From the NCBI RefSeq assembly GCF_000003815.2, contig NC_049979.1, forward strand, positions 23,603,085 to 23,667,084: a stretch of 64,000 nt of DNA. Direction: 5' to 3'. This DNA comes from Branchiostoma floridae. Taxonomy: Eukaryota; Chordata; Leptocardii; Amphioxiformes; Branchiostomatidae. The translations under genes were made by a program, and so were the position numbers. Positions 294-3,412 of this stretch are shown here, piece after piece. Numbering within the stretch: the stretch's first letter is position 1; each line of letters opens with the position of its first letter. Below the pieces are notes generated by a model. That model searched no databases, was not told the origin of the DNA, and saw only the letters and a list, made by a program, of their open reading frames with translations.

Positions 294-422
294 GTGCATG
301 CTATAGTGGGCGTGCTGGGCGATGACACAGACCCCATGGTGACAGTCATGAAGCTTGAAAAAGCCCCCAAGGAATCATACGCAGACATAGGAGGCTTGGA
401 TCAGCAGATCCAGGAGATCAAG
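294..422 (+). other. PSMC1: PSMC1 alternative exon copy A
   Basis: 129 nt, 43 codons, phase 0 at both ends, acceptor CTGCAG and donor AAG|GTTTGT. It encodes the end of the OB-domain region and the entry to the AAA module (VHAIVG ... QQIQEIK). Compared with the neighbouring copy B it keeps the residues usual in human Rpt2 at several of the differing positions (His2, Thr17, Lys23, Gln40 of the exon), so it is probably the constitutive or ancestral form. Confidence 0.85.
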
Positions 423-3412
423 GTTTGTTTGTTTGTTTGTTTGTTGCTCTGGCCAGGTGCAGGCCATTGTGGGGGTGTTGGGTGACGACACAGACCCCAT
501 GGTGTCGGTTATGAAGCTGGAATCGGCACCGTCTGAGACGTACGCTGACATTGGGGGTCTGGACCACCAGATCATGGAGATCAAGGTAGTCACAGTAGGC
601 ATGAGCTGGCTCATAGTCATACTCTAAAGGGGAAATGTTTGTGGGAATGTAGTTTTGTAGTAGGGAGGAAATGGAGAGGTCACAATGGTTTCATGTTTGC
701 AGACTGCCAGTTGAATCAAGGGGTTAGGCATGAAGTACAAAAATTTTCCTGGTGGTTTTAAGGTCGTGTTGTTTATATCACAGCTAAAAGTGCAAACATA
801 AATCCCCTGCAAACATTTCTCCTTTTATAGATATTGATTTGTTTTCTGCAGTAGAAATTCTGCTTGGACTGATGCAATGAATGCAATGACAAAGGTCTTG
901 ATGTCTTGGGAACTTTGCTATAATGTTACTATTGTTAGCTGAATATTGATCACGTGCTATCCAGATTCATAGAACTTTGAAGTTATAGAATCAAATTCAA
1001 GTCTTGCTTTCACCAAATTCATGCAGTTTACATTGTATTTGTCACATTTCATACTAATATGATACAAGCCTTTTGAAAAAAATAGTGACATCAAGATATT
1101 TTTTTTCCTCCACCATTAGGAGTCGGTGGAGCTGCCCCTGACTCACCCAGAGTACTATGAAGAGATGGGCATCAAACCTCCCAAGGGAGTCATCCTGTAT
1201 GGTGCTCCTGGAACAGGTAAGCTTCCCATGTGCCAAATCTTACATTTAGATTACTTGGCTGGAATACTAAGTGTTGATGCAGAATACCAAGTGTTGTATA
1301 CTTCCTACCGTCCTGAGGAAATACACATTCATTTTGAAACCAGGTGTGAAAATTTGGTGCTGTGAAACAAAAAATTGTAAGAACATCAATTGAAATATCT
1401 TAATGTGGTCCTCAATTTTTGATAGCAGTATATGCAGGGCATATAAAGTACATTTTAATTATTGTATGGAAGCCAGTGTGATACAACATAACAATAACTG
1501 TTGAAGCCTGTGGTGTACCATAATGTACAGATGTACAGATGAGTACAGAACACTTGTAATGCATTGTATTGAACATTGTGAAGGCTTGGATGTGTGCAGT
1601 TGAATTTCTAGTATGAGTCAGGATGCTTGTTCAGCACATTGTGAATTTTTTGTATGTTATTTGCAGGTAAAACTCTCCTGGCCAAGGCAGTGGCCAACCA
1701 GACATCAGCCACCTTCCTGAGAGTCGTCGGGTCGGAGTTGATCCAGAAGTACCTCGGGGACGGACCCAAGCTGGTGCGCGAGCTGTTCAGAGTGGCGGAG
1801 GAACACGCCCCGTCCATCGTCTTCATCGACGAGATCGACGCGGTGGGTACGAAGCGGTACGAGTCCAACTCCGGCGGGGAACGTGAGATCCAGCGGACCA
1901 TGCTGGAGCTGCTGAACCAGCTGGACGGGTTTGACTCACGGGGGGATGTCAAGGTAAAGGGCAAGTTCCCATACTTCTACAAGGGTTTGACTCACGTGGG
2001 GATGTGAAGGTAAGGGGCAAGTTCCCATACTTCTACAAGGGTTTGACTCACGGGGGATGTGAAGGTAAGGGTCACGTTCCCATCCTTCTACAAGGGTTTG
2101 ACTCACGGGGGGATGTGAAGGTAAGGGGCAAGTTCCCATTCTTCTACAAGGGTATACTTTTTAGAGTCTAGTGTAAAAATAGTTGGGCCTGAAATGTGTG
2201 TTTAGGTGGATTTTAAATTCCCTTTCATTTATACCAACTGCAATTTATTTCTACTCGAAAGATACGCTGCTTCCAACGAAATTTGGTTGTTAACTTCATT
2301 GTTGCTGCCAATAGTTTTTGTGTGCTTTTTAAGTAGACACAATGACCACATACATTTCCAACAAATGTGACTCTCATGACAGTGGGTTAGTAGAAGTGTG
2401 CATGCATGGTCAAATTCTAGGGTCCTGTAACAGCCCTGTAGAGCATGCTGTTTGTTCATTACTTCATAAATATTGTTCTTGATTTGTCTGTGTCATGTTG
2501 ACTATTTCCTGAACCCTCTTCTTTCCTCATTCAGGTAATTATGGCCACCAACCGAATAGAAACTCTGGACCCAGCCTTGATCAGACCTGGTAAGTCATGT
2601 ATTTCATATAGCCTGATTTAATCGCACTTCTTAGACCCCGTCCTACAGCTCCGGATAGCGGAGTTTGCGTTACACAGACTATATTTTATACTGGGGACAT
2701 TTTCCTTTGTCCATTTGAAGGATTTTTTAGCAGTGGCACCTTGCTGAAAAAATGCCCTTTGTATGTTCCTTAATGCCATTGACTTCTGTTTGTACTCGTA
2801 GGCCGCATTGACCGTAAGATCGAGTTCCCGCTGCCAGACGAGAAAACAAAGAGAAGAATCTTCCAGATCCACACGAGTCGCATGACCCTGGCGGAAGACG
2901 TAAACCTGGAGGACTTTATCATGGCTAAAGACGACCTTTCAGGGGCCGATATCAAGGTCAGTATGAATCTTATTTTGTAGTCTATGTCTTAGTTTAATAA
3001 ACTGTGTTGTATCAATGTTGAACATTTTATTCTGTTTGAGAATTGAACAACAGTTCTAATAAGCTGGATCATGGTTTAAGGTGAAGGCCCCTAAATTGTA
3101 AACAGTTCTTGTCTAGACCATGCTTGATACTATGTGCAGATGTGTTTTGTTTGTCTTAGGGGCCTTGAACTTTGACAGGTTACCCACAATACATCACACT
3201 GCACATGCGCTGTTCAGACTGAAACAGCTTACATTATGTGAGACACAGATCTAAACATGTACATGTGTATGTTATAGGCTATCTGCACTGAAGCAGGATT
3301 GATGGCTCTACGAGAACGCAGAATGAAAGTCACCAACGAAGACTTCAAGAAATCCAAGGAGAATGTGCTGTATAGGAAGAACGAGGGGACACCGGAGGGG
3401 CTGTACTTGTAG
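294..3412 (+). CDS. PSMC1: 26S proteasome regulatory subunit 4 (Rpt2) AAA-ATPase, 5' end outside window
   Basis: Rpt2 is one of six AAA-ATPases in the base of the 19S particle; it unfolds substrates and helps open the 20S gate. Exons: 294-422 or 457-585 (alternatives), 1120-1216, 1667-1953, 2535-2589, 2802-2956, 3278-3412, all with GT-AG borders and compatible phases. The translation follows human PSMC1 almost residue for residue. Visible motifs: Walker A GAPGTGKT split across the 1216/1667 junction (human has GPPGTGKT), Walker B FIDEID in exon 1667-1953, the arginine-rich RPGRIDRK segment across the 2589/2802 junction, and the C-terminal LYL (HbYX-type gate-opening tail) before TAG at 3410. 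N-terminal exons (myristoylation site, coiled coil, most of the OB domain) lie upstream of the window. The odd points are the duplicated first exon and a tandem array at the 1953 donor, listed separately. Identity is near certain. Confidence 0.96.
457..585 (+). other. PSMC1: PSMC1 alternative exon copy B
   Basis: 129 nt, 43 codons, phase 0 at both ends, acceptor TGGCCAG and donor AAG|GTAGTC. It encodes the same protein segment as copy A with 7 of 43 residues changed (H2Q, T17S, K23S, K26S, S28T, Q37H, Q40M) and many silent differences. Only 34 nt separate it from copy A; that spacer holds a GTTT run and is not a multiple of three. This pattern fits mutually exclusive splicing. Confidence 0.8.
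1927..2149 (+). repeat. 56-bp tandem array duplicating an exon end and splice donor
   Basis: Four head-to-tail units start at about 1927, 1983, 2039 and 2094 (spacing 56, 56, 55). Each unit contains the last about 27 nt of the PSMC1 exon (GGGTTTGACTCAC...), the donor GTAA and the following intron bases. Candidate donors are at 1954 (GTAAAG, true reading frame), 2010, 2065 and 2121 (all GTAAGG). Using any downstream donor would retain an in-frame TGA at 2005-2007. Confidence 0.9.
3081..3178 (+). repeat. Inverted-repeat element, GGGGCCTT family, copy 2
   Basis: Ends are GTGAAGGCCCCT and AGGGGCCTTGAACTTTGACA, forming a short terminal inverted repeat around a middle with TCTAGACCATGCTTGATAC. It sits in the last intron of PSMC1. 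A small non-autonomous DNA transposon (MITE) is the likeliest explanation. Confidence 0.75.

Follow-up and report, generated by a model that had tools for sequence, protein, structure and literature searches.

A tandemly duplicated, apparently mutually exclusive coding exon in the proteasome ATPase gene PSMC1 (Rpt2) of the lancelet Branchiostoma floridae

The window analyzed here is a stretch of 64,000 nucleotides (nt) from Branchiostoma floridae (contig NC_049979.1, positions 23,603,085 to 23,667,084) that opens within PSMC1, the gene for the proteasome ATPase Rpt2. Near its start, on the plus strand, lie two copies of one exon, A (294–422) and B (457–585), separated by a spacer of 34 nt (423–456). 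Judging from the sequence, we consider it probable (roughly 0.75) that the single PSMC1 gene found in the assembly has in A and B a pair of mutually exclusive coding exons. A preliminary description of this DNA had reported two 129-nt exons in phase 0, each with its own acceptor and donor, encoding the same 43-residue segment with seven replacements, and its coordinates proved exact. The two are homologous neighbors of equal length and phase, with their own GT-AG sites and with coding constraint on both, as in a tandem duplicated exon pair. A scan of the window for paired frames (stop-to-stop frames of at least 25 residues, BLASTP E ≤1e-4, same strand, less than 5 kb apart) returned 19 rows, in which A/B and its antisense shadows were the only whole-exon pair; the remaining rows were a minisatellite at 1921–2150, an interspersed repeat, ankyrin repeats, one pair 2.5 kb apart, and short repeats.

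Each exon encodes the equivalent of residues 156–198 of human Rpt2, a segment that we take to span the end of the OB domain, the OB-AAA linker, and the first helix, or first part, of the ATPase domain. Counted from the exon pair onward, the form containing A is identical to human Rpt2 at 267 of 285 residues (93.7%), and the form containing B reaches 92.6% over the same 285. The A form matched the full-length human Rpt2 chain 12bm_B with an E of 5.3e-177, and Rpt2 was favored over Rpt1, 3, 4, 5, and 6 as the best match. Rpt2 chains occupied the top 18 places among the best 60 of 181 matches to the A form, including the plant chain 8amz_I, whose record is titled only "AAA domain-containing protein" and which we presume to be from spinach. 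A Pfam search with the 43-residue A and B pieces gave no matches. The exon preceding the pair lies outside the window, at positions 8873–9058 of the upstream stretch L163 (window −826 to −641), and ends with …MNHK in phase 0. Joined to either A or B, it reads in frame into the downstream exons, with one terminal stop; the intron before A would be 934 nt long and that before B 1097 nt.

The two exons differ at 31 of 129 nt (76% alike), with 7, 3, and 21 of the changes at first, second, and third codon positions, respectively. Their products are identical at 36 of 43 residues, with no insertion, deletion, or stop. The replaced residues are 2, 17, 23, 26, 28, 37, and 40 of the exon, so that the seven replacements reported in the preliminary description stand, while their clustering at the OB-AAA linker holds only in part. 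By the NG86 method, nonsynonymous divergence (dN) over the 43 codons was 0.113 and synonymous divergence (dS) 2.14, giving a dN/dS of ∼0.05, and by LWL85 the two values were 0.141 and 1.59. Bootstrapping over codons placed dN/dS between 0.018 and 0.175 (2.5%–97.5%; 327 of 500 replicates defined, 173 undefined), and 10 of the 16 fourfold sites differed. In a neutral simulation, 31 random substitutions on A produced a mean of 19.9 amino acid changes, and seven or fewer were observed in none of 20,000 runs. The same was true (0/20,000) when 22 changes were placed on one copy, that is, the 14 nt accounting for the seven replacements plus eight synonymous changes. The proposal that synonymous positions had diverged while the protein was kept is thus borne out, and these figures, all from a single species, support the view that A and B are both coding copies under selection.

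A is the conservative copy. Among 41 comparable positions, 24 are invariant in human, yeast, and plant (8amz_I) Rpt2, and A keeps all of them. B alters two: exon position 23 (human K178), which becomes S, and position 40 (human Q195), which becomes M. The other five A/B differences fall at variable positions (17, 26, 28, and 37) or at a position not compared (2). Differences from human number 8/43 in A, 11/43 in B, and 10/242 in the rest of the gene compared (Fisher 0.002 for A and 3e-5 for B). Because both copies exceed the rest of the gene in divergence, the A/B segment is the faster-evolving part in this comparison. More distant relatives were of little help in polarizing the changes. No animal Rpt2 was present among the best 80 of 277 loci from viral contigs or the best 80 of 447 from genome contigs; identity to the query was at most 45% and 57%, respectively, the titles were those of prokaryotes or viral contigs, and these relatives were taken for FtsH/PAN-type ATPases. 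The archaeal comparison drew on the 12 genome loci whose match started at query residue 9 or earlier, and on no viral locus. It does not settle the ancestral state, because exon residue 2 was unaligned in all of them and the remaining six A/B differences lie at variable positions.

The case for exclusivity is found in the spacer. Its sequence, GTTTGTTTGTTTGTTTGTTTGTTGCTCTGGCCAG, consists of a (GTTT)n microsatellite followed by TGCTCTGGCCAG, and contains a single adenine, at 455, within its own AG. The PSMC1 introns 3′ of B measure 534, 450, 581, 212, and 321 nt. Under the AG-exclusion rule, the candidate branch adenines for exon B are 412, 415, 417, 420, and 421, all five inside exon A. Since the spacer has no branch adenine, exon B, if it uses one, must take one 5′ of 423, within exon A. 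The best candidate is A420, in the predicted branch site U-C-A420-A (418–421), which falls in the final two codons of exon A, with A420 itself in the very last. It is the only candidate with U at −2 (the UNA pattern), has the top branch score across 380–454, and precedes exon B by 37 nt and the donor of A by three bases. Exons are classed as sterically exclusive when less than ∼50 nt separates the donor of the first from the branch point used by the second, and with the branch points predicted here the pair falls within that distance. The steric argument of the preliminary description is therefore on firmer ground than when first made, as it had rested on the shortness of the spacer. A second argument needs qualifying. 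Retention of the spacer does shift the frame, as had been claimed, with a stop after 20 further residues, but A and B joined without the spacer remain in frame, as does the message when both are skipped. Joint inclusion shifts the frame only if the spacer is retained, unlike in the class of exons kept apart by frame shift and nonsense-mediated decay, and a frame shift alone cannot enforce exclusion.

The splice sites were scored with a vertebrate-type matrix. The donor of A (AAG/GTTTGT, 423–428, the slash marking the junction) is weak, at 5.6 bits, and that of B (AAG/GTAGTC, 586–591) scores 4.5 bits. Of the seven PSMC1 donors scored, the other five range from 6.7 to 11.3, so that A and B have the two weakest, as expected for regulated exons. 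The acceptor regions, ending in …CTGCAG for A (278–293) and in …GGCCAG for B (441–456), score 9.7 and 8.2 bits, respectively. A strong donor-like sequence, TGG/GTAAGC, was also noted at 266–274, 25 nt 5′ of exon A; at 7.5 bits it exceeds the donors of both A and B, and it overlaps two candidate branch adenines of exon A.

These elements suggest the following mechanism. The donor of the upstream exon would join A or B, and either would then join the exon at 1120. Joining A to B would not be readily possible, because at 34 nt the spacer is shorter than the introns reported to be productive in human and has no branch adenine. In intron 5 of EMD, the minimal productive length from donor to branch point was 46 nt, and in intron 1 of HBB a constraint was seen up to 56 nt (PMC11291888); the spacer is also shorter than a human intron of 43 nt for which splicing has been shown (PMC4463651). 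The bases needed by U1 on the donor of A and by U2 on the branch site of B, at best A420, would be the same, setting the two in competition. Selection of B would discard exon A within the lariat intron, and selection of A would block B. The outcome would be two Rpt2 forms that differ at seven of 43 residues, a conservative one from A and one from B that lacks two Rpt2-invariant residues. The UGUUU-rich spacer might, speculatively, be bound by regulators of the CELF or TIA type. Exclusivity thus looks steric, an extreme form of a known class.

Several observations weigh against this reading. The splice and branch scores come from vertebrate-type matrices and not from lancelet ones. Runs of at least 28 nt without A occur nine times in the 64-kb window, so the absent adenine could be incidental to the microsatellite and is no sign of selection in itself. 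With regard to competing long-range pairing of the docking-selector kind, the RNA fold of 240–660 is not unusual (z −0.88, one fold in one species). dS is imprecise, as only 43 codons contribute, and the one-copy neutral test weakens when fewer silent changes are assumed, with P rising to 0.013 for 16 changes, 0.06 for 14, and 0.22 for 12. The changes of two invariant residues in B could mean relaxed constraint. Short introns do splice in some systems: some canonical splicing persisted in all HBB constructs, the shortest of 44 nt (PMC11291888), and introns shorter than 34 nt occur in some ciliates, being ∼25 bp in Paramecium and Nyctotherus (PMC5014332). Splicing has also been shown for human introns of 43, 49, and 56 nt; the two shorter ones lack an authentic branch site, and no lariat was detected for them (PMC4463651), which means that the want of a good branch site does not strictly preclude the splicing of a very short intron. 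These human cases, together with the frame being kept both by A+B joining and by double skipping, favor a cassette arrangement in which A and B may be included together or both skipped. We regard this as very improbable, since the spacer has only 34 nt and no branch adenine, and a doubled or absent 43-residue segment would presumably disrupt the OB and ATPase fold.

A more substantial alternative, still rather unlikely in our assessment, is that B is a former or spare copy, now seldom or never spliced, and that A alone makes Rpt2. It would account for the loss of invariant residues in B (two, against 0/24 in A), for B carrying the weakest donor in the gene, and for a branch site that has to be borrowed from exon A. 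A dS near or above 1, combined with a dN of ∼0.11 and an intact frame, points instead to lasting selection on B, and at 8.2 bits the acceptor of B scores as those of constitutive exons do (5.4 to 12.7).

The locus is unique in the assembly (513,431,437 bases in 431 contigs), in searches that score the best candidates only. Exon A DNA matched only the A and B sites, side by side, and a search with the exon A protein gave three weak extra matches, all of them to other Rpt genes. No third copy was present near the gene, in L163 and the window, the one extra row being a chance match (E 4). Compared in register, the flanks matched at 27 of 100 bases upstream and 9 of 34 downstream, the upstream 100 nt of B being made up of the spacer and the end of exon A; this similarity was not above that of shuffled sequence, with 135/300 and 210/300 shuffles equally good. 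Lancelets are very polymorphic, and runs of N, which may be gaps or masked, are present elsewhere in the window (∼44322–44880, 46850–47390, and within 39764–40879), both of which could favor an assembly or haplotype-merging artifact. With each copy found at a single place, with 24% exon divergence and unalignable flanks unlike those of haplotype duplicates, and with no N in L163 or in window 1–6000, such an artifact was rejected as scarcely credible.

The assembly contains all six proteasome ATPase genes, named here provisionally by sequence hallmarks. The segment equivalent to A/B is present as one copy in each of the other five (tblastn, E ≤0.1, 10-kb stretches), with PSMC4 matched by its last 13 residues only and the PSMC5 stretch including 100 N. 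Tandem repeats of exon edges were found in several of these genes. In PSMC1 itself, a minisatellite at 1927–2153 (56-nt unit, 4.1 copies, 93% match) repeats the end of the exon at 1667–1953 with its donor; this creates decoy donors, after 2009, 2064, and 2120, that outscore the true donor at 1953 (11.2 against 7.4 bits), and each would give an early stop. Further upstream in the same gene, an array at L163:7714–8253 has a 46-nt unit containing TGTGTCCCCCCAG, a string identical to the probable acceptor of the exon at ∼L163:8283. PSMC3/Rpt5 (L166:1741–2380, minus strand) carries about five copies of the end of its Walker A exon plus donor, with a period of 142, each followed by GTAAG or GTAAA. 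PSMC5/Rpt6 has three copies of an acceptor and exon start with a period of 90, and a 79-nt coding-like repeat of 2.7 copies (L165:3888–4146 and 2228–2444, respectively). In PSMC2, a 128-nt repeat (1.8 copies) overlaps a coding match. No repeats were seen in PSMC4 at a score of at least 100, or in PSMC6 at a score of at least 50 in 6.1 kb and at least 100 in 10 kb.

Such arrays, which copy exon edges and splice sites in three of the six Rpt genes (PSMC1, PSMC3, and PSMC5), raise the alternative that A/B is one more boundary-seeded tandem repeat, as elsewhere in the genome, with no role in alternative splicing; Tandem Repeats Finder did score the A/B unit as a 163-nt repeat of 1.8 copies. We consider this improbable. 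By the same program the other arrays are ∼88%–99% alike and include intron sequence, whereas A/B is 76% alike and comprises one whole exon with both junctions, its flanks are dissimilar, and its changes are mostly silent. Repetition of this kind may explain the origin of the pair and not its upkeep, and A/B likely arose by the same duplication process as the exon-edge arrays, with selection acting afterwards. Canestro and colleagues (2002) are said to have described in amphioxus "mirage" minisatellites, which contain exon-intron junctions in near-identical short units. Their tandem units seeded on exon boundaries are a plausible duplication source; the A/B pair differs in being two diverged complete exons, and with 76% identity and unalignable flanks it does not consist of near-identical units across an exon edge and intron.

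If A and B are mutually exclusive, as we favor, they join an established class. In human, 57 of 629 clusters of mutually exclusive exons are attributed to steric interference, with a donor-to-branch distance below 50 nt, and like A/B these clusters comprise homologous neighbors of similar length and the same frame (PMC5740500). The terms "PSMC" and "proteasome" have no occurrences in the main text of that survey. The closest worked-out case found is exons 4a/4b of OGDH, where exclusion results from 4b having its branch points too near the donor of 4a (25–41 nt in human); they differ in that those branch points are within the intervening intron (PMC7969005), whereas that of Rpt2 exon B would have to be within coding sequence, that of exon A. 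Exons Ab/3 of U2AF1 are also duplicated and homologous, in a core housekeeping protein with two isoforms, and the branch points of Ab are weak and atypical; unlike the predicted site in PSMC1, the mapped branch points are just 5′ of each exon's own pyrimidine tract (PMC5224494). The same work reports that an AG within ∼8–12 nt of the branch point is skipped. Exons 7a/7b of unc-32 have between them a UG/U-rich UUGUUGUGUUGU that is bound by UNC-75 (CELF) and needed for the neuronal choice of 7a (PMC3585155); binding of a factor to the Rpt2 spacer is, by comparison, speculation. No Rpt2 exon pair of this kind appeared among the titles and abstract openings listed for proteasome/Rpt2, for amphioxus or lancelet mutually exclusive exons, and for splicing mechanism and short introns in open-licence PMC papers, which does not establish its absence in print. 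The new elements are that the gene codes for a proteasome ATPase and that the exclusion is taken to the point of a spacer without any branch adenine.

Downstream of the pair, PSMC1 continues on the plus strand with the next constitutive exon at 1120–1216, an exon at 1667–1953 that carries Walker B and the last part of Walker A, exons at 2535–2589 and 2802–2956, and the final coding exon at 3278–3412, which ends in EGLYL and the stop. Walker A, split between 1201–1216 and 1667–1674, reads GAPGTGKT, and the human Rpt2 motif is GPPGTGKT. Two diverged copies of an interspersed repeat are present in PSMC1 introns, at ∼1–165 before exon A and at 3080–3230. The minus strand of the window encodes an ankyrin-repeat protein with a SOCS box (48811–49761) and an Alg9-like mannosyltransferase (40570–41613). 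Rfam and tRNA scans of the window gave no matches.

Proteasomes are known to be diversified mainly through alternative catalytic subunits and activators. We put forward, as a tentative proposal that the sequence makes possible rather than probable, that a single Rpt2 gene supplies this animal with two kinds of 26S proteasome, by a splice switch in which the branch point of B is coded inside A, and that the B form, without K178 and Q195, alters the coupling of the OB ring to the ATPase ring in some tissue or stage. If true, a splice choice within a subunit of the ATPase ring would be a new route to specialized proteasomes. The two forms would offer a natural seven-residue variant of the joint between OB and ATPase domains, directly testable in existing yeast and human reconstitution systems, and the locus would be a compact case of exclusion written in coding sequence. 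Finally, the tandem duplication of exon edges in several proteasome ATPase genes of this lancelet suggests how such pairs may arise.

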